From the NCBI GenBank assembly GCA_018711625.1, contig DVID01000016.1, positions 1-39,556 on the forward strand: 39,556 nt of DNA, read 5' to 3'. The stretch comes from Candidatus Limicola stercorigallinarum (GTDB lineage: Bacteria; Actinomycetota; Coriobacteriia; Coriobacteriales; Coriobacteriaceae). This document shows positions 11,060-21,443 of this stretch, in pieces. The notes beneath the pieces were generated by a model. That model ran no database searches, was not told the origin of the DNA, and saw nothing but the letters and a program-made list of their open reading frames with translations. The position numbers and the translations under genes are program-made. The stretch's first letter is position 1. Every line of letters begins with the position of its first letter.

Positions 11060-11533
11060 GTGGCTGGTTCTGAGGAGAAGACCCCGCTTGTGGGCATCAT
11101 CATGGGTTCTAAGTCCGACCTTCCCACCATGGAGGGCTGCACGGCTGAGCTTGAGGCGCTGGGCGTGCCGTACGAGCTGGTGATTGCAAGTGCGCACCGC
11201 AACCCGGAAAAGGTGCACGAGTGGGCCGGTTCCGCTGCCGATCGCGGCCTCAAGGTGATTATCGCTGCCGCTGGCAAGGCCGCTCACCTGGGTGGTGTTG
11301 TGGCGGCCTTCACGCCGCTCCCCGTTATCGGCGTGCCTATGAAGACGAGCGACCTCGGCGGTTTGGACTCGCTGCTCTCGATGGTGCAGATGCCCTCCGG
11401 CGTGCCCGTGGCCTGCGTGGCCATCAATGGCGCCAAAAACGCGGCCATCTATGCCACGCAGATTTTGGGCGCTACGATGCCGGAGTATCGCGACGCCATC
11501 GCGAAGATGAAGCAGGAGATGGCCGAGGCGTAG
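11060..11533 (+). CDS. purE: N5-carboxyaminoimidazole ribonucleotide mutase
   Basis: PurE converts N5-CAIR to CAIR in purine synthesis (class I), or carboxylates AIR directly (class II). The 157-residue protein shows [10 protein letters not shown] near residue 15, the SAHRNPEKV motif, and the conserved C-terminal block [20 protein letters not shown]. The usual glycine loop GAGGAAHLPG is replaced by [11 protein letters not shown], which makes the class assignment less secure. The start is GTG with AAGGAG at a spacing of 6. No purK is in the window. The other purine genes here lie 10 kb away. A sortase gene follows after 23 bases and may be cotranscribed. Confidence 0.93.
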
Positions 11534-12812: not shown

Positions 12813-13634
12813 CTAGTCGGGCTGCACGGCGTCTGAGACAATGGACTGACCGGGCTTTAACCAGGTGGTACTCCATTCAATAGGACGATTGTCGGCCAGA
12901 CGAATAATTTGTTCCAGCAAAAGCACGGCAGCCGCCTCGTCGCAGCCGAGGAGTTCGGCGTGGTCCACGCCCGCCACGCGCGCGCTATAGGTCATGCGTG
13001 AGAACTTAATCTTGCGTCCAGAGCATTGCTCCACGAGGTCAAAGAGTGATTCTTGCTCAAAGTTGGCATCGGCAAGGCCGGGGCATTCGTTGAGGTTGAG
13101 CCAACTTTCCTGGCACATAATCGGTTCGCCGTCTACTGAACGCACGCGGCGGAGAAACATCACGTCGGCATCGTCGGGTATCTCGAGAGCGCGGGCCACG
13201 TCGGGTGGTGCCGGGGTCACCCAGCTATCGGCCACGCGCGTGGTGAACTGTTTCCCCTGTTCATGCAGGTTTTCAGCAAACGAAAAGGGCCTGCTGCCTG
13301 CTGCGTGCGATATGCCTGGTTCTGCCACAAAGGTGCCTTTGCCATGGCGGCGTACGAGCAGCCCCTCCTGCACAAGCAGGGCAAGCGCCCTGCGCACGGT
13401 GCCTCGTGCCAGGTTATAGCGCGCCATGAGTTCGTGTTCGGAGGGAATTTTTGACCCTACGCCCCAGTCGCGTCCGTATACCTTCTCACGAATGATGTCT
13501 GCAAGCTGTACGTGCAGGGGTGCCGGAACTTTGGTGTCAGGCGCCGTCTTGGTATCGTTCGCATGGCCGAGGGCAAGCCAAGGTTCGGTGGGGTCGAGCT
13601 GGCTCTCACCAGGTTTGAGTATTCGTGCGGTCAC
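12813..13634 (-). CDS. GntR-family regulator with UTRA ligand domain (HutC type)
   Basis: The product is a 273-residue transcription factor. A winged helix-turn-helix of GntR type spans about 38-105 (LHVQLADIIRE, then KIPSEHELMARYNLARGTVRR and a GLLVRRHGKGTFV wing). A UTRA domain, which binds small effectors such as sugar phosphates, covers about 115-265. About 35 extra residues precede the DNA-binding domain. The start GTG at 13634 is chosen because AAGGGAGG stands four bases before it; an in-frame GTG at 13652 has no such site. A palindrome-rich region at 13673-13693 upstream shares TATACAAGT with the promoter of the PTS operon at 16478. Inference: autoregulation plus control of that operon, with a sugar phosphate as effector. 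Confidence 0.92.
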   Translation of the reverse strand: MTARILKPGESQLDPTEPWLALGHANDTKTAPDTKVPAPLHVQLADIIREKVYGRDWGVGSKIPSEHELMARYNLARGTVRRALALLVQEGLLVRRHGKGTFVAEPGISHAAGSRPFSFAENLHEQGKQFTTRVADSWVTPAPPDVARALEIPDDADVMFLRRVRSVDGEPIMCQESWLNLNECPGLADANFEQESLFDLVEQCSGRKIKFSRMTYSARVAGVDHAELLGCDEAAAVLLLEQIIRLADNRPIEWSTTWLKPGQSIVSDAVQPD

Positions 13635-14003
13635 AATTCCTCCCTTAGACACGTCTCAAGCCTAGCGCAAAAATGTACATGATGTATACAAGTTCTCGTC
13701 GAGACGTGAGAATTGCCGGTGAAGGGCGAGGGCACGGGAAGGAGAACGGTCAAAACCTGGAAGTTTGTGCTTCGGCGTTGTGCGGGTGGGTATGATACAG
13801 CCAAGGGAGCTAAGAGCGCGTTCTGTGTGCCTGCTAGCGGGCATAGTATTCGTTGCAAGGCTGCGCTGGCGAGGCATATCTTTGGGCTGTGCCCACCACG
13901 TTTTGTGCCACGGCTGATTCGATGGGTCGCATTGTTGCGTCGCCTGCTCTCCTAGATCTGTCGCCGTCTTACATTCTGCCCCTCCACATCCAAAGGAGAG
14001 TCC
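13635..14003. other. Divergent intergenic region, gntR / cmpB-like gene
   Basis: This 369-base gap holds the proposed GntR operator at 13673-13693. On the plus strand it holds a TATGAT box at 13791-13796 that may serve the downstream membrane protein gene, with no strong -35 box. The remainder, 13800-14003, shows no convincing small gene. Confidence 0.5.
13673..13693. promoter_or_regulatory. Proposed GntR operator upstream of gntR
   Basis: ATGTACAT (13673-13680) and TGTATACA (13683-13690) are adjacent palindromes. The second runs into AGT to give TATACAAGT (13685-13693), which is repeated exactly at 16325-16333. Alternating GT/TA/AC content is typical of HutC-subfamily operators. Read on the minus strand, the site lies about 40-60 bases before the gntR start, a suitable place for autorepression. 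Confidence 0.6.
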
Positions 14004-15377
14004 ATGGCCGCCGTATCTTCCGCTAGGCAAGCGCGGGGTGCTAACCCTTCCAACAACAAGCTTGACCCCAAAACGCCGGCATCAACTGAGCGCAAAAAAA
14101 TCTCGCTGGTGGCCAAGATTTACGGTCTTCTGTGCCTGATTGACGGCGTTGTGACCCTGCCCATTGCCGTGTTGCTGGTGGGCCTCATCGCTTACGCCTT
14201 GGTGTTCCAGCCGGGTACCATCCCTACCAATTCCGACCCTACGCTTACCACTATCATCTCGGTGCTGAGTTTCTTAGTATCGGTGGTTGCTTCGGGCATT
14301 CTTATCTTCTTGGGCGCATCGTTGCTGCGCAATCACAGGCGCAATGCTGCGCGCTGGTCGCACGTGCTCCTTGCGCTCAACTTTGCCCAGCTGCTGTTCA
14401 ACGTGATGCTCCAGGGTATTGGGCCGCATCTTATTTCTCCGCTTATTCAGCTTGTGATCTTGCTTGCCCTCTCCGTTACCGTTGACCCCACCCTGCGCCA
14501 AGAGCGCGAACTTCAGCGTGAGCTCCGCGAGCTTGAAGACCGCGAGGCCGCCGAGCGTGGCATGCTCGGCCGCGATCTTGAAGGCAAAGGTTTTATCGAG
14601 CTCAACTTCTTCAATGTGTTCTGGGTGTTTATAGTGTGCAGCGTGCTTGGGCTTGTGCTTGAGGTAATCTGGCACATGGTGGTCGTTGACCCCGGTGTGT
14701 ATCAGGACCGCGCGGGCATGCTCTTTGGTCCGTTCTCGCCCATCTATGGTGTAGGCGCCGTTCTGATGACGGTTGCACTCAACCGTTTCTATAAGGCGAA
14801 CCCCATCATCATCTTTGTGGTGTCGGCGGTAATCGGCGGCTGCTTCGAGGCGTTCGTGAGCTGGTTTATGCAGACAGGTTTTGGTGCGGTGGCCTGGGAT
14901 TATTCAGGTACCACCATCTTTGGCTTTCCCGATCCTGTTGCAGCGTTCTTCCATGGCCGCACGAGCACTCCGTTTATGCTCATGTGGGGCATGCTGGGGT
15001 TTGTGTGGATCAAATTCTGCCTGCCGCGTTTGCTTTCGGTGATCAACCTGATCCCCTGGAAAATGCGCTATTCGCTCACTACTATCTGCGCCATCCTCAT
15101 GGCGGTGAACGCGGTTATGACGCTTCAGTCGCTCGACTGCTGGTACGAGCGTCTTTCGGGCGTGAAGGTGGATTCTCCGGTTGAAGAGTTCTACGCCGAG
15201 CATTTCGACAATGCCTATATGGAGCATCGCTTCCAAAGCATGACGGTAACGCCTGAGGATTCGAGCCGTGTGGATACGCCTGCGAAGCTCACTGACGCAA
15301 ACAGCTCAGCTGATGGAGCTTCGGATGGCACCTCAAGCTCGCGTGATGCGACTACGAGTCAAGGGCCCACACAATAG
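14004..15377 (+). CDS. CmpB-family membrane protein (putative ABC transporter type IV)
   Basis: This 457-residue membrane protein shows two parts. The N-terminal part (about 35-160) has four hydrophobic helices, followed by a charged coiled stretch (RQERELQRELRELEDREAAE, about 168-187). The C-terminal part (about 205-385) resembles the family named putative ABC-transporter type IV or CmpB, with FGPFSPIYGVGAVLM as its best signature. The tail from about 415 is Ser/Thr/Asp-rich and probably disordered. The molecular role of the family is not established and the ABC link is only a database name. The ATG has AAAGGAG at a spacing of 7. The gene stands alone, closed by the hairpin at 15406. Confidence 0.8.
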   Translation: MAAVSSARQARGANPSNNKLDPKTPASTERKKISLVAKIYGLLCLIDGVVTLPIAVLLVGLIAYALVFQPGTIPTNSDPTLTTIISVLSFLVSVVASGILIFLGASLLRNHRRNAARWSHVLLALNFAQLLFNVMLQGIGPHLISPLIQLVILLALSVTVDPTLRQERELQRELRELEDREAAERGMLGRDLEGKGFIELNFFNVFWVFIVCSVLGLVLEVIWHMVVVDPGVYQDRAGMLFGPFSPIYGVGAVLMTVALNRFYKANPIIIFVVSAVIGGCFEAFVSWFMQTGFGAVAWDYSGTTIFGFPDPVAAFFHGRTSTPFMLMWGMLGFVWIKFCLPRLLSVINLIPWKMRYSLTTICAILMAVNAVMTLQSLDCWYERLSGVKVDSPVEEFYAEHFDNAYMEHRFQSMTVTPEDSSRVDTPAKLTDANSSADGASDGTSSSRDATTSQGPTQ

Positions 15378-15547: not shown

Positions 15548-15955
15548 TTATGCGGGGCGCTCAACCTCGCGGACGCAGGTTGACTTGATGGTGCCCACAA
15601 GCGCCTGAAGAGCGTCTACCACATGGGGGCGAATATCGCCGCCGATCAGGACGAGCATGATGTCGTCGCCCACTTCAAGTTCGCCTTCGTTTAGCCAAAC
15701 GCGCACGTAGGCAATGCCCGGCATGGCGCGGGTTTCCTCGATGGCCGCTTCAACTTTTGCCGCATCGTAGGCGAACTCCATGCTGCCTACTGAACCCGTG
15801 GCATCCACGCCGCCGTGTTCGCCCGTGCGTACCTGCGCCTTGGGCGTTTCGCGCACCACGCCGTTGTGGAAGAGGTACATGCCGCAGCGGCTTGCGGCGG
15901 GGTCGGCCTTCGCCTCTGCAAGCCACGTGTCTAGAGAAGGGGGAAGAGATGCCAT
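15548..15955 (-). CDS. moaE: Molybdopterin synthase catalytic subunit-like protein (MoaE)
   Basis: The 135-residue protein resembles MoaE, which with MoaD adds sulfur to precursor Z to form molybdopterin. It keeps the family core: a GEHGGVDATGSVGSMEF stretch in place of the usual GAxxxFxGxVR region, the acidic helix KVEAAIEETRAMPGIAYVRV, LEVGDDIMLVLIGG, and a C-terminal TIKSTCVREVE with a conserved Lys. It lacks the first conserved strand and is divergent, as is common in Coriobacteriia. The ATG has AAAGGA at a spacing of 6. No other molybdenum cofactor gene is near. A nickel- or tungsten-related role cannot be excluded. The upstream leader contains a GC-rich hairpin at 16083-16118. Confidence 0.75.
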   Translation of the reverse strand: MASLPPSLDTWLAEAKADPAASRCGMYLFHNGVVRETPKAQVRTGEHGGVDATGSVGSMEFAYDAAKVEAAIEETRAMPGIAYVRVWLNEGELEVGDDIMLVLIGGDIRPHVVDALQALVGTIKSTCVREVERPA

Positions 15956-16307: not shown

Positions 16308-16341
16308 ACTTGTACATTGCTTAATATACAAGTATGTACAC
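16308..16341 (+). promoter_or_regulatory. Proposed GntR operator and promoter of the PTS operon
   Basis: ACTTGTA (16308-16314) and TACAAGT (16327-16333) form a perfect 7-bp inverted repeat with a 12-base spacer, followed by ATGTACAC. TATACAAGT is identical to the site upstream of gntR. Candidate promoter hexamers TTGTAC (16310-16315) and TATGTA (16333-16338) are exactly 17 bases apart and lie inside the operator. A bound repressor would block RNA polymerase. Confidence 0.6.
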
Positions 16342-16477: not shown

Positions 16478-17188
16478 ATGCCTATGGAGAAGACCACGTT
16501 GAGGAAGCCGTTCTTTGTCGTCAACCCCAAGTCGTACCTCTATGGCGAGGACGTCTACGCGCTTGCGCGCAAGGCTGACGAACTCGCGGCGCGCTACGAC
16601 ATCGACTGCCTCTTCACCGCGCAGCTCATCGATCTTCCACATATCATCGCCGAGTGCCCGCACCTCATTCCGTGCGCCCAGGCTATGGAGAGCCTGAAGC
16701 CCGGTCGCGGTATGGGCCACATTCTCCCCGAGGCCCTCGCGGCGGCAGGCGTAAAGGCCACGTTCCTCAACCATGCCGAGAACCCGCTCACCATCCATGA
16801 GCTTGCGGCAACCATCGCGCGTGCCAACGAGCTTGGCATCCTCACGGTGGTCTGCGCCGACTCGGTTGAGGAGGGCGCTGCCATCGCCGGGCTCCATCCC
16901 GATGTAATGGTGTGCGAGCTCACGAGCCTCATTGGCACCGGTACCGTTGCCGACGAGGATTACATGCGTGGTTCCACCGAAGCCGTGAAGGCCGTTTCGC
17001 CCGAGACCCTCGTACTCCAGGCTGCTGGCATTTCGAGCGGCGAGAACGTGTACGACGCTATCCGCTACGACGCAGATGGTACCGGCGCCACCTCGGGCAT
17101 TGTTGCGGCGCCCGATCCGGCTCAGCGTCTTGAGGAGATGTTCGCCGCTCTCGACCGCGCGCGTACCGATTTCTGCAAGGAGGCTTAA
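16478..17188 (+). CDS. Archaeal-type triosephosphate-isomerase-like protein
   Basis: The product is a 236-residue TIM-barrel protein, first gene of the sugar operon. It resembles the short archaeal triosephosphate isomerases (about 220-230 residues) more than the ~250-residue bacterial type. Signs are VVNPKSY (N..K substrate loop), GHILPEALAAAGVKATFLNH with the catalytic-region His, ILTVVCADS, CELTSLIGTG (catalytic Glu and loop 6, replacing the usual EPPELIGTG) and the phosphate loops AAGISSGENVYDAI and ATSGIVAAPDP. The altered loop 6 suggests a substrate other than dihydroxyacetone phosphate, perhaps another ketose or tetrulose phosphate. The ATG at 16478 has AAAGGAG at a spacing of 6. The next gene starts 3 bases after the stop. 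Confidence 0.82.
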   Translation: MPMEKTTLRKPFFVVNPKSYLYGEDVYALARKADELAARYDIDCLFTAQLIDLPHIIAECPHLIPCAQAMESLKPGRGMGHILPEALAAAGVKATFLNHAENPLTIHELAATIARANELGILTVVCADSVEEGAAIAGLHPDVMVCELTSLIGTGTVADEDYMRGSTEAVKAVSPETLVLQAAGISSGENVYDAIRYDADGTGATSGIVAAPDPAQRLEEMFAALDRARTDFCKEA

Positions 17189-17191
17189 TAC

Positions 17192-17713
17192 ATGACCGTC
17201 TACAAAGGCAAGCTCCAGATGGACACCCTCGCCGGGAAGCCCACCTATGTGGATATCACCGACGGCGTGCGCGACATCGTGAAGGAGTCGGGCATCAAAG
17301 AGGGCATCGTGGTTGTCATCTCGTGCCACACCACCTGCGCGGTGTTCTCAGAGGAGTATGACCACGACCACACGCCGGATGGTGACACCTTCCTGCAGGC
17401 CGATCTTTCCGACGGTTTGGACAAGATCTTCCCCGAGCAGCACGACTGGAAAACCTACCGTTACCCGGGCATTCAGCACTTTGAGGAGGTCGAAACCTGG
17501 CCCAACCTCGAGGCATGGCTGCCGGGCGGCGACCGCACGCTTCTGTGGAACGGTGATGCTCATCTGCGCTCCACGATCGTGGGCAGCAACCAGACGTTTG
17601 AGGTGGAAAACGGCGAGCTTCAGATGAACGGCCTCGCCAGCATTTACTTTGTTGACTTTGACCGCACGCGTGAGCGCACGCGTAAGGCTAAGGTTGTTGT
17701 CATAGGAGAATAG
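17192..17713 (+). CDS. YjbQ-family protein (UPF0047)
   Basis: The 173-residue product belongs to the YjbQ family, single-domain proteins of unclear function, some of which show weak thiamine-phosphate synthase activity. Typical family blocks are VVVISCHTTCAVFSEE (about 39-54), a DLSDGLDKIFP helix, HLRSTIVGSNQTFEVENGEL (about 125-144) and the C-terminal IYFVDFDRTR. Length is somewhat above the ~140 usual, owing to an insertion around the PEQHDWKTYRYPG segment. AAGGAGG precedes the ATG, inside the end of the isomerase-like gene. Its tight coupling in a PTS sugar operon suggests an accessory role in sugar-phosphate metabolism, but nothing in the sequence shows what it does. Confidence 0.85.
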   Translation: MTVYKGKLQMDTLAGKPTYVDITDGVRDIVKESGIKEGIVVVISCHTTCAVFSEEYDHDHTPDGDTFLQADLSDGLDKIFPEQHDWKTYRYPGIQHFEEVETWPNLEAWLPGGDRTLLWNGDAHLRSTIVGSNQTFEVENGELQMNGLASIYFVDFDRTRERTRKAKVVVIGE

Positions 17714-17773
17714 CGTCGACGTATTGAATGACCCGCTGGTCGCACGCCGGTGCGTTCGCTATGGTAGTCAAGA

Positions 17774-17803
17774 CTCCAAACGCCGTGACGGGAGTGTTTG
17801 GAG
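17774..17803 (+). terminator. Intra-operon hairpin before the PTS IIC gene
   Basis: CTCCAAAC (17774-17781) pairs with GTTTGGAG (17796-17803) over a 14-base loop. There is no T-run, so it may stabilise or divide the mRNA rather than terminate it. It fills the 149-base gap between the YjbQ and IIC genes. Confidence 0.4.
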
Positions 17804-17862
17804 GCTCGGCCCGGTAAGGGGGATGCGGCACAAGCTGCATCCAACACAGGAAAGGGAGAGAA

Positions 17863-19269
17863 ATGGACGCAATTCTAGCTTTCTTCACCTTTATTCAAGG
17901 CCTGGGCGTCTCCGTAATGATGCCCATCATCCTTACCATCATCGGTACCGTTTTGGGTGCCGGCTTTGGTAAGAGCCTTAAGGCCGGCCTCACCGTTGGT
18001 GTAGGCTTCATTGGCCTGAACCTGGTCATCAACAACGTGCTCGGCACCAACCTGGCGCCCGCTGTTGAGGAGATGACCACCCGCTTTGGTCTGGCCCTCA
18101 ACATCATCGATGTTGGTTGGCCGGCGTCTTCGGCAATCGCCATGGGTTCCACCGTTGGCCTCTTCATCATTCCGCTTGGCCTGGTTGTGAACATCATCAT
18201 GCTGCTCACCAACACCACCCAGACGGCCGACGTGGACATCTGGAACTATTGGCACTTTGCCTTCACCGGTTCCATCGTGGCCATCATCACCGACAACATC
18301 ATGCTCGGCTTTGCCGCTGCCGTGATTAACGAGGTTGTGGTGCTTATCCTGGGCGACGTCACCGCTCCGCAGGTTGAGAAGTCGCTCGGTATGCCCGGCG
18401 TTTCCCTGCCTCACGGCTTCACTGCAGCCTTTGCGCCCATCGCCATGTTCGTCAACTGGGTTATCGACAAGATCCCGGGCGTGCGTGACATCAACGTCGA
18501 CGTTGAGTCCATGCAGAAGAAGTTCGGCGTCTTTGGCGAGCCCATCTTTGTTGGCACCATCATTGGTATCATCATCGGCTGCGTTGCCTACTTCGACACC
18601 GCTGACATCGCTGGCTCTGCAACCACCATTCTCACCCTTGGTGTTTCCCTCGGCGCCGTGCTCGTGCTTATCCCGCGTATGGCCGCCCTGCTTATGGAGG
18701 GCCTGCTCCCCATTTCTGATGCCGCTTCCGCCTTCATTCAGAAGCACTTCCAGAACCGCGGCAAGATTTACATCGGCCTCGACTCCGCCGTGGGCGTTGG
18801 CCATCCCGTCACCCTTTCGCTCGCGCTCATCCTGATCCCCGTCATGCTGCTGCTCGCCGTTGTGCTGCAGCCGCTCGGCAACCAGGTCATCCCGTTCGGC
18901 GACCTCTCCACGGCCACCTACATGCTCGTGCTCATCACCCCGATCGTGAACCAGAACGGCTTCCGCGGCCTCATCGTGGGCATCATCGTGCTTGCTGTTG
19001 GCCTGCTCATCTCCACCTACATGGCTCCGTTCCAGACGGCTGCCGCCATGCAGTCCGGCTTTGATATCGCCGCTGCCGCTGGTAGTGCCAACGCTCTGAT
19101 CTCGTCGCTCTGCGATGGCGCCAACCCGCTCACGTTCATCTTCGTGTTCCTGAGCAACCTCAACGGCTATCTGTGCATCGGCATCACCGGCGTTGCTGCT
19201 ATCGTCTTCGCCATTTGGAACCGTGCGCGCATCCTCAAGGAGGCCGCTGAGCTCCACGCGCAGAACTAA
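17863..19269 (+). CDS. PTS galactitol-type permease, EIIC
   Basis: The 468-residue integral membrane protein is an EIIC of the galactitol (Gat) family, which moves a polyol or sugar across the membrane while it is phosphorylated. About ten to twelve hydrophobic helices are visible. GatC-type stretches include MPIILTIIGTVLGAGFGKSL near the N-terminus, NIIDVGWPASSAIAMGS at about 85-100, and GHPVTLSLALILIP near 312. The first residues closely resemble GatC (long FFTFIQGLGVSVMMP start). The ATG follows GGAAAGGGAGAGAA. No EIIB gene is adjacent, although Gat systems normally need IIA, IIB and IIC. Actual substrate unknown; galactitol itself is not implied. Confidence 0.9.
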   Translation: MDAILAFFTFIQGLGVSVMMPIILTIIGTVLGAGFGKSLKAGLTVGVGFIGLNLVINNVLGTNLAPAVEEMTTRFGLALNIIDVGWPASSAIAMGSTVGLFIIPLGLVVNIIMLLTNTTQTADVDIWNYWHFAFTGSIVAIITDNIMLGFAAAVINEVVVLILGDVTAPQVEKSLGMPGVSLPHGFTAAFAPIAMFVNWVIDKIPGVRDINVDVESMQKKFGVFGEPIFVGTIIGIIIGCVAYFDTADIAGSATTILTLGVSLGAVLVLIPRMAALLMEGLLPISDAASAFIQKHFQNRGKIYIGLDSAVGVGHPVTLSLALILIPVMLLLAVVLQPLGNQVIPFGDLSTATYMLVLITPIVNQNGFRGLIVGIIVLAVGLLISTYMAPFQTAAAMQSGFDIAAAAGSANALISSLCDGANPLTFIFVFLSNLNGYLCIGITGVAAIVFAIWNRARILKEAAELHAQN

Positions 19270-19316
19270 GCGCTTCTGAGCCGTCTTCGAGGCGCGCGCC
19301 TTGAAGATGAATGACC

Positions 19317-19358
19317 CGCGGGGCCCGCGCTCGGCAACGGGCGTGGGCCCCGCGCTTT
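19317..19358 (+). terminator. Attenuating hairpin after the PTS IIC gene
   Basis: A 14-bp stem with one G-T pair (19317-19330 with 19341-19354, beginning CGCGGGGCCC) and a 10-base loop, followed by CTTTG. Lying inside the operon, it probably lowers expression of the genes that follow. Confidence 0.6.
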
Positions 19359-19375
19359 GTGAAGGGAGAACAACC

Positions 19376-19954
19376 GTGGAGAACGTCTATACCTATGACG
19401 ACCACCGCTACCGCTTCGACGTCATCGTTCCCGGTGTTGTTGCGGCGATTGCCCTGCCGGTTGCCCTTGGTATGCTGGCGCTCTCGGTGCTCACACCCAT
19501 TGCGCTTGTGGTGCTGGTGGTGGCAGCCTATACGGTGTTTAACACCTTTATCGCCAAGTGTTATCCGCGTCGCGTTTCGGTGAGCGCGACCGAGCTCGTG
19601 CTTGAGTCGTTTGGCAGGCGCGACGCATATCCTCTCGCTCAGATCAAGCGGCTTTCTGTGCGCGAGAACGGTCGGGTGCGCGCAGCCTACATCCGTGTGA
19701 ATGGCGGTGGTGTTGTGCGCGGCCGCTACTTTGTGGGCTGCGGTGACATGTACACCCCCGAGGGCGAGAAGGGTGAGGCGCTGTATCAGTTCTTCCTGAA
19801 TACTGAGGCACGCTTGGACCCCGACAATATTCGCGTGCGGGCACGTCGGGCCGAAACGCGCCGTGTTGAGGCCGCCTCATCTTCGGAGCGTAGTGAAGAT
19901 GAGGAACGCGCCATTCGCTCCGAGCGTCGCTGTCGTCGCCGGCGCAAGCATTAA
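19376..19954 (+). CDS. Small membrane protein with two helices and basic tail
   Basis: This 192-residue protein is not one I can name. Two hydrophobic segments lie at about 15-35 and 40-58, followed by a ~90-residue beta-rich region (RRVSVSATELVLESFGRRDAY then AQIKRLSVRENGRV) that looks like bacterial PH-like (YdbT/DUF304-type) domains. The last ~35 residues are rich in Arg, Glu and Ser and probably disordered. The GTG at 19376 is chosen over the upstream ATG at 19301 because GAAGGGAG precedes it and the longer version would cross the hairpin at 19317. It is located between PTS IIC and the aldolase. An accessory role in the operon is inferred from position only. Confidence 0.7.
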   Translation: MENVYTYDDHRYRFDVIVPGVVAAIALPVALGMLALSVLTPIALVVLVVAAYTVFNTFIAKCYPRRVSVSATELVLESFGRRDAYPLAQIKRLSVRENGRVRAAYIRVNGGGVVRGRYFVGCGDMYTPEGEKGEALYQFFLNTEARLDPDNIRVRARRAETRRVEAASSSERSEDEERAIRSERRCRRRRKH

Positions 19955-20011
19955 TCATCCTGCATTCGTTCGCACGTGTCTGCGTGTACCCCTCTTCTAG
20001 AAAGGATTGTC

Positions 20012-20893
20012 ATGCTAGTAAACCTTCGTGACATCTGCGCCATCGCCGAGCAGAACAACATGGCCATCGGCCAGTTCAATGCTCCCACGCTTGAGGCGGT
20101 GCGCGCGGTTATCGACGCTGCCGAGGCCACCGGCTACCCGGTGATGCTCGGCCATGCCGAGGTCCACGAGAGCGTGGCTCCGCTCGACGTTATGGGCCCG
20201 GTTATGGTGGCTCTGGCCGAGCGCTCCTCCGCTCCCGTGTGCGTGCACCTCGATCACTGCGAGCATCTCTCATACATGCGTCGCGCCCTTGAGATGGGCT
20301 TCAGCGGTGCCATGTACGACGGCTCGATGGAGCCGTATGAGGTCAACGTCGAGAACTCCGCCCGCGCAGCGGCAATGGTGCACGATTTTGACTGTGGCCT
20401 TGAGTGCGAGCTGGGCTCGATGGGTTCGCGCGAGGGCGGTGCCTCCAACGAGGGTGGTACGGCCGAGGAGGCAGGTGCCATCTACACCGACCCCGACCAG
20501 GCGCGTGAGTTTGTGGAGGCCACGGGCCTTGACGTTTTGGCCTGCTCGTTTGGTACGGTGCACGGCCTCTACAAGGGCGAACCGCACCTTTCCTTCGACG
20601 TGCTCACCCAGATTCGCGACCGCGTGAAGGTGCCGCTTGTGATGCATGGCGGCTCGGGCGTGTCCGACGAGGATTACCACAAGGCTATCGACGCTGGCAT
20701 TCGCAAGATCAACTACTTCACCTACGGTGACAAGTTTGCCGCCGAGGCTGCGTGCTCGGTGGTGGATGCCGAGCGTGCTGCCGGCAATGTGGTCTACTGG
20801 ACCAAGCTCACCAGCGCTGCCTACGAGCGCCTGGTGGAGGATTTTGTGCACGTGATTGAGGTCTTCGCCAACGGTGCGGAGCCGGTTGCGTAA
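20012..20893 (+). CDS. Class II ketose-bisphosphate aldolase (GatY/FbaA type)
   Basis: This 293-residue zinc-dependent aldolase cleaves a ketose 1,6-bisphosphate to dihydroxyacetone phosphate and an aldehyde. The family set is present: HLDHCEH with catalytic Asp and zinc His (about 80-86), LECELGSMGSREGG, the zinc-binding FGTVHGLYKG, VMHGGSGV with the third His, and GIRKINYFTYGD for phosphate binding. Length fits GatY/KbaY and fructose-bisphosphate aldolases (285-310). The ATG has AGAAAGGA upstream. Together with the isomerase-like gene it would give lower-glycolysis intermediates from the imported sugar. Tagatose, fructose or another ketose bisphosphate are all possible. Confidence 0.92.
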   Translation: MLVNLRDICAIAEQNNMAIGQFNAPTLEAVRAVIDAAEATGYPVMLGHAEVHESVAPLDVMGPVMVALAERSSAPVCVHLDHCEHLSYMRRALEMGFSGAMYDGSMEPYEVNVENSARAAAMVHDFDCGLECELGSMGSREGGASNEGGTAEEAGAIYTDPDQAREFVEATGLDVLACSFGTVHGLYKGEPHLSFDVLTQIRDRVKVPLVMHGGSGVSDEDYHKAIDAGIRKINYFTYGDKFAAEAACSVVDAERAAGNVVYWTKLTSAAYERLVEDFVHVIEVFANGAEPVA

Positions 20894-20969
20894 CATACAC
20901 CGTCCAAGTGCGTCCCGCTGTGCCCACCGTTGTGCAGGGCCGGGTAGCAATTCATAGATAGGAGCATCC

Positions 20970-21443
20970 ATGTCCACTGTCGATACCGATCTTTTCACGC
21001 CTGAGCTTGTGTTCTTTGACTTCGAGGCCAAAGACCGCTTTGAGTTTTTCAACAAGATGAGCAAGATTCTTGTTGAAAAGGGTTACGTGAAGGACACGTG
21101 GCTCGACGCCATCCTCACCCGCGAGAAGAACTATCCCACGGGCCTGCAGTTTGAGCATATTGCCGTGGCGTTGCCGCATGTTGATCCCGAGAACCTGATT
21201 AAGCCCTACATTGCCGTGATCAAGCCCAAGGAGCCCATTGTGTTTGAGGGCATGGCGGGTATTGGCGGCGACGTTCCCGCCGAGCTCATCGTGAACCTGG
21301 GCCTGCTTGCGCACGCCGAGGGCCAGGTCGCCGTGCTCCAGGCGCTCATGGGTGTGTTTATGGACGAGGCATCGGTTGCCGACATCACCGCCCAGACAAC
21401 GCCTGAGGGCATGGTCGAGACGATGCAGAAGTACTGCGCGTAA
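20970..21443 (+). CDS. PTS EIIA, fructose/galactitol (GatA) type
   Basis: This 157-residue phosphocarrier receives phosphate from HPr and passes it to an EIIB. The EIIA-2 family site is clear: YPTGLQFEHIAVALPH with the active His at residue 70. The rest (VFEGMAGIGGDVPAELIVNL, then LQALMGVF) is typical of GatA-like proteins. GATAGGAG precedes the ATG. It is the last gene of the operon. No EIIB is found in the 16-21 kb region on either strand, so it must use one encoded elsewhere. Confidence 0.9.
   Translation: MSTVDTDLFTPELVFFDFEAKDRFEFFNKMSKILVEKGYVKDTWLDAILTREKNYPTGLQFEHIAVALPHVDPENLIKPYIAVIKPKEPIVFEGMAGIGGDVPAELIVNLGLLAHAEGQVAVLQALMGVFMDEASVADITAQTTPEGMVETMQKYCA

Follow-up and report, generated by a model that had tools for sequence, protein, structure and literature searches.

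A phosphotransferase sugar operon with a TPI-like isomerase, YjbQ and a class II aldolase in Candidatus Limicola stercorigallinarum

Why would a gut bacterium carry an archaeal-type relative of triosephosphate isomerase (TPI) inside a sugar-uptake operon? This question is raised by contig DVID01000016.1 of Candidatus Limicola stercorigallinarum (39,556 nucleotides, analysed over its whole length and hereafter called the window), in which six genes at 16478-21443 had been described in a first-pass annotation as an uncharacterised phosphotransferase system (PTS) sugar operon, that is, a complete route for a sugar or polyol in which the isomerase-like protein, with an altered loop 6, acts on something other than the usual triose phosphate. 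All six open reading frames (ORFs) are intact, lie on the plus strand and occupy the positions first assigned to them, and the family assignments hold by Pfam and NCBIfam (archaeal-type TPI, UPF0047/YjbQ, EIIC-GAT, class II aldolase and type-2 EIIA), so that six co-directional genes of the kinds described are indeed present. The gene set is not a product of chance, because it recurs in dozens of genomes and has an operator-like palindrome just upstream. Tentatively, and with slightly less than balanced confidence, we read it as a PTS sugar operon built on a conserved core of TPI-like isomerase, YjbQ and aldolase that would isomerise and then split a sugar phosphate. The occurrence of these three enzymes together across many unrelated bacteria points to an undescribed sugar breakdown route; we found no description of the YjbQ, TPI and PTS gene set in the open-licence literature, and the operon retains its label of uncharacterised, with a transporter and an aldolase that score below the galactitol/tagatose cut-offs and a gene set that recurs.

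A recurrent gene set

A protein search yielded 78 loci, 57 of which (the window included) had more than 4 kb upstream and more than 5 kb downstream and were used for counts. YjbQ lies near the isomerase in 56 of the 57 (52 in the automatic table and four more from the direct BLAST table) and a class II aldolase in 53, so the co-occurrence across genomes that the first-pass annotation had proposed to check is positive. The transporter varies: Gat-type PTS in 39 loci, Gut-type in seven, mannose-type in six and none recognised in five. ABC transporters take its place in Murdochiella (L066) and on Shinella plasmids (L114, L115), where kinases of the DhaK/DhaL and FGGY types and epimerase-like proteins are also encoded. 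The Murdochiella locus (L066, 56-11217), in which an ABC transporter, DhaK, DhaL, a ribulokinase-like kinase, an L-ribulose-5-phosphate 3-epimerase and two YjbQ genes surround the aldolase and the TPI-like gene, has the richest gene set and is the best clue to the substrate class. A minimal operon, PRD-IIA-IIC-IIB-aldolase-TPI-YjbQ, is plasmid-borne in L. paracasei and E. faecium and has transposase genes nearby.

Evolutionarily, the spread is patchy, with the isomerase in 30 of the 298 genomes of the window's class; because of this patchiness, the core fits an accessory, horizontally transferred module. A broader sampling of Gammaproteobacteria gave one genome of 321, the starting one. A separate observation concerns loci L069-L086 (Selenomonas, Centipeda and Halolactibacillus), where a Gut-type PTS and the core are joined by an oxidoreductase of the DRL_cat family (PF21135, DXR-like) and, at several of the loci, by GutM; these might represent a version of the pathway for a polyol, branched or otherwise. 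For the core itself, the methylerythritol or branched-polyol route that DRL_cat would suggest was considered and rejected, since no more than 10 of 79 loci, all of the Gut-PTS group, have DRL_cat close to the isomerase, and it so falls outside the shared core; a literature search found no paper on a DRL_cat-linked route.

The isomerase and its partner YjbQ

The isomerase (16478..17188, plus strand, 236 aa) scores 167.2 bits against NF003302, the model for archaeal-type TPI (cut-off 132), and is closest by both sequence and fold to 1hg3, the TPI of Pyrococcus woesei (AlphaFold model, TM 0.89, rmsd 1.4, 35% identity). It shares with the archaeal enzymes their fold, length, IGTG loop and catalytic residues (K18, H99 and E147, invariant in all clade members with sequence there), and its phosphate loops are kept. 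Nevertheless, in a tree of 28 operon and five archaeal proteins, rooted at the midpoint only, the operon isomerases all fall on one side of a branch with 100/99 support and the archaeal TPIs on the other. P17, G78, A100, G203 and T205 are invariant across the operon clade, in contrast to F/Y, H, S, L and A in the archaeal proteins, and the corresponding motifs change from NFK/NYK to NPK, from LNHS to LNHA, from an SHTG-type loop to GRGMG and from an LLASG-type loop to GxTSG. By alignment, G203 would stand at the place of the leucine that packs against the catalytic Glu in ordinary TPI, and its presence there may enlarge the pocket. As for loop 6, the window does have the alteration reported earlier (CELTSLIGTG, where archaeal TPI has EPPELIGTG). 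Unlike the changes above, it is not shared across the clade: since most of the distant members have CEPTELIGTG, it is lineage-specific.

A canonical TPI is encoded elsewhere in the window's genome (contig C44, 47421-48155, 313 bits), and one is present in all 25 operon-carrying genomes tested. In contrast to archaeal TPI, the clade is bacterial and operon-borne, and among the genomes tested its members are never the sole TPI; the case that the first-pass annotation had named as refuting its reading, a protein that works only as normal TPI and is the genome's sole copy, thus does not arise. Because a canonical TPI coexists, the clade is separate and pocket residues have changed, the isomerase is unlikely to be the housekeeping TPI, in keeping with the earlier view that it is distinct from the usual enzyme. 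It may act on a non-triose substrate.

The chief rival, which we regard as possible but doubtful, would place the isomerase after the aldolase, where it would convert three-carbon products either as an additional ordinary TPI or as an L-glyceraldehyde 3-phosphate isomerase; in the ABC-type relatives, a DhaKL-type kinase would first phosphorylate glyceraldehyde. The retained catalytic and phosphate-binding residues suit such a role, as do the DhaK/DhaL kinase genes found with the ABC versions of Murdochiella and Shinella, and ketohexose chemistry would account for the 3-epimerase-like genes seen in Man-PTS and ABC versions. However, a canonical TPI is already present in each genome tested, the PTS versions are without a glyceraldehyde kinase, and the pocket residues differ clade-wide.

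Recruitment of a TPI-family paralogue to a sugar catabolic operon has a precedent in EryH (TpiA2) of Brucella, annotated as D-3-tetrulose 4-phosphate isomerase (PMC5992420). The isomerase could be a functional analogue of EryH in a tetrulose phosphate pathway, with the PTS or a kinase importing a C4 sugar or polyol, and the Shinella cluster, with its FGGY kinase, TIM-barrel epimerase-like protein, TPI and sugar-binding regulator, resembles the ery genes. We consider this quite unlikely: the loci inspected showed no RpiB/EryI partner, aldolase cleavage of tetrulose 1-phosphate would yield formaldehyde, and the Murdochiella FGGY kinase and 3-epimerase look pentulose-type. The Brucella ery genes, as listed in PMC10190533, also differ from the operon in having no PTS, YjbQ or class II aldolase, and the kinship between EryH, a TPI-family protein, and the operon isomerase need not be close.

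The adjacent gene (17192..17713, plus strand) encodes a long-form YjbQ of 173 aa that falls below the cut-off of TIGR00149 (64.3 bits against 67.75) and matches the broader PF01894 (90 bits). Residues H46, T47, T48, E55, D71, H96, N120 and H124 are conserved with the UPF0047 structure 1xbf, whereas C49, H58, D59, Y89, Y91, P92, G93 and D122 are specific to the operon clade; Y89, Y91, P92 and G93 lie in an insert that makes the operon protein longer than 1xbf. A pdxB defect in E. coli is relieved, through an unknown route, when YjbQ is overexpressed (PMC7954711). In three Erysipelotrichaceae loci (L045, L049 and L053), the cluster has two tandem yjbQ genes and also encodes a Gfo/Idh/MocA oxidoreductase, a small VOC protein and an AraD-like product.

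The aldolase and the proposed route

The aldolase (20012..20893, plus strand, 293 aa; PF01116, 258 bits) belongs to a set of operon enzymes in which the metal ligands H82, H184 and H212 are present in 72 of 72 sequences and D81, in the DH motif, is the catalytic Asp. Two further motifs are as constant: A-[EQ]-x-H, with A49 and H52 in 71 of 71 sequences, and N-x-[FY]-T in 72 of 72. Position 240 is V, T, A, L, I, D or S across the 72, and never R, K or Q. The A-[EQ]-x-H motif stands where FbaA has its Ser; by comparison with class II aldolase structures, we take the position of A49 to be that of the Ser, and position 240 that of the Arg, Lys or Gln following the NxxT motif, that bind the C6 phosphate. 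Measured against class II ketose-bisphosphate aldolases, the enzyme has the metal-binding His residues and the catalytic Asp but not the residues that we assign to the C6 phosphate. Because the Ser is replaced by Ala and Arg, Lys or Gln is never present, these sequences suggest that the substrate is a ketose 1-phosphate rather than a bisphosphate.

Two characterised or annotated enzymes offer a comparison: SqiA, a class II aldolase acting on a ketose 1-phosphate (PMC9594981), and E. coli YdjI, annotated as an octuluronate 1-phosphate (ketose 1-phosphate) aldolase. Both belong to PF01116 and have substrates without a C6 phosphate, and YdjI, like the operon aldolases, is without both the Ser and the Arg/Lys/Gln; in contrast to the operon aldolases, however, SqiA, YdjI and FbaA are all without A-[EQ]-x-H and N-x-[FY]-T, and SqiA and YdjI belong to different operons. 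The operon aldolases themselves form two clades, each with 100/100 support and with long branches between them, and both clades have the A-[EQ]-x-H and N-x-[FY]-T motifs. The clades are deeply diverged, yet isomerases from one group and the other reach about 72% identity, which suggests that one aldolase replaced another beside an isomerase that stayed in place.

From these features, we posit a route that begins with a PTS that probably takes up a sugar already at the aldehyde or ketone level and phosphorylates its terminal carbon. For the Gat version, such a sugar is favoured over a polyol because the operon is without a dehydrogenase or kinase; neither gene is found in the window operon or in the minimal plasmid operons, and the polyol substrate entertained in the first-pass annotation is accordingly not upheld for the window version. 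The TPI-like enzyme would then apply normal TPI chemistry, through K18, H99 and E147, to a sugar phosphate longer than a triose, so that the carbonyl shifts to the position adjoining the phosphorylated carbon (R-CO-CHOH-CH2OP to R-CHOH-CO-CH2OP). Acting second in this order, the aldolase would split the resulting ketose 1-phosphate into dihydroxyacetone phosphate (DHAP) and a short aldehyde, and DHAP would enter glycolysis via the separate canonical TPI of the genome. More broadly, we see an evenly balanced case for regarding the isomerase, the A-[EQ]-x-H aldolase and YjbQ in its long form as a pathway of sugar-phosphate degradation that is undescribed, moves horizontally and can exchange one uptake system for another. 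In it, the TPI clade would be a new sugar-phosphate isomerase, and YjbQ, a member of a widespread family whose function is unsettled, would have a specific catabolic role.

A related but rather unlikely variant has the core convert a pentulose phosphate to DHAP and glycolaldehyde. It draws on the L-ribulose-5-phosphate 3-epimerase of Murdochiella (217.7 bits, above the subfamily cut-off) with its ribulokinase-like kinase, and on an AraD-like gene in 14 loci. A 2-keto pentulose 5-phosphate would nonetheless need two carbonyl shifts before DHAP-type cleavage, and only one isomerase is recognisable; to assign the second shift to YjbQ would be speculative.

Several points weigh against the proposed route. 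Since its phosphate loops and catalytic residues are kept, the isomerase may have ordinary TPI activity. A nearby aldolase is missing in four of the 57 loci. The C6-phosphate role of A49 and position 240 is presumed from class II aldolase structures. SqiA, a ketose 1-phosphate enzyme, keeps an Arg at position 240, though it is without the Ser. The two aldolase clades may represent one old lineage, with the shared motif inherited rather than converged upon independently. Finally, the window operon is missing a PTS IIB gene.

Transporter, regulation and surroundings

Enzyme IIC of the Gat family (17863..19269, plus strand, 468 aa; PF03611, 270 bits) is intact and scores 411 bits against the galactitol-specific model TIGR00827, below its cut-off of 542, and the type-2 enzyme IIA (fructose/mannitol/Gat class; 20970..21443, plus strand; PF00359, 92.8 bits) reaches 65.7 bits against the GatA model, for which the cut-off is 139. 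With the E. coli gat operon (gatYZABCD) the window operon shares Gat-class IIA and IIC and a GatY-family aldolase, and from these alone it could be an ordinary galactitol/tagatose operon with odd paralogues. That explanation is very improbable, and a galactitol/tagatose pathway was rejected on scores and missing genes: none of IIC, aldolase and IIA reaches the cut-offs of the galactitol/tagatose models (IIC and aldolase fall far below), no GatD dehydrogenase, GatZ or kinase is present, and another Gat IIC, a better match and paired with a IIB of its own, is encoded on contig C16 of the same genome. The operon differs from gat further in being without IIB and in having the TPI-like and YjbQ genes.

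The claim of a complete route fails at IIB. Judged as a Gat-type PTS, the operon has IIA and IIC but not the full set: there is no IIB ORF in the window, and the interval between yjbQ and IIC (17714..17862, plus strand), which alignment with relatives identifies as the place of their IIB gene, is a gap of 150 bp. The close relatives Collinsella sp. An2 (L010) and Enorma phocaeensis (L011) have a IIB ORF between yjbQ and IIC, in a gap of about 455 bp. A stand-alone IIB on contig C46 (38729-39010) is 71% identical to the operon IIB of Enorma phocaeensis. Its identification as the relocated operon gene was rejected, because same-genus genomes carry both a stand-alone orthologue (86%) and an operon IIB (70%), making it an older stand-alone paralogue. 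Therefore, the sequences are most simply accounted for by loss of IIB from the window operon, for which the stand-alone IIB would most plausibly substitute; an assembly error may also underlie the gap. The stand-alone Gat-type IIB (L088/L090) is conserved in most genomes of the family at 52-86% identity, apparently without linked IIA or IIC, and no operator site is found near it.

The palindrome upstream of the operon (16309..16332, 24 bp, no strand assigned) reads CTTGTACA-N8-TATACAAG (CTTGTAYA-N8-TRTACAAG) and is the sole perfect match in the whole genome, with a chance expectation in the window of 0.07 when up to three mismatches are allowed. The same arms at 12-bp spacing precede the isomerase gene in most Coriobacteriia loci, and seven of 76 are perfect, against 0.02 in shuffles. 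A GntR/UTRA regulator is encoded on the minus strand (12813..13652; PF07702, 116 bits, and PF00392); in relatives, the homologous GntR gene lies directly upstream of the isomerase gene, and the family (neighbourhood family 7) is present in 34 loci. We infer that the GntR protein binds the palindrome. A second operator-like site, with two mismatches, lies near a mannose-type IIA-like ORF on contig C35 (52114-52137; L145) and may be due to chance, because a reversed-pattern control gives about as many such sites. Scans of the region for promoters and terminators gave no more matches than in shuffles, and an Rfam scan gave none.

The remaining operon gene (19376..19954, plus strand) encodes a small membrane protein without a Pfam family. 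A 24-sequence alignment delineates two N-terminal helices (27 and 20 residues), a beta-rich domain and C-terminal helices; its AlphaFold model has a mean pLDDT of 96.9, and a fold search against the PDB returned nothing significant, the weak top matches being mostly PH-like or FERM domains. The flanking genes belong to a purine region that the operon interrupts, with a purE-like gene (AIR carboxylase) at 11060-11533 and purF-, purM- and purN-like genes from 21618. Between purE and the operon, a membrane protein with an ABC_trans_CmpB domain (PF06541) is encoded at 14004-15377, with an ORF at the equivalent place beside the GntR gene in the Collinsella and Enorma loci. The gene immediately before the operon, at 15548-15955 on the minus strand, encodes a short protein whose domain resembles MoaE (31.8 bits); here too, both relatives have a minus-strand ORF at the equivalent place.

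If the proposed route is correct, gut and oral Actinomycetota, Bacillota and a few Pseudomonadota would have a further means of sugar catabolism, borne in part on conjugative plasmids of lactic acid bacteria, and an enzyme fold that is among the best studied would gain a new substrate. The route would also tie YjbQ, a family known mainly from the rescue of vitamin mutants by overexpression (PMC7954711), to a defined operon in which its reaction becomes testable.

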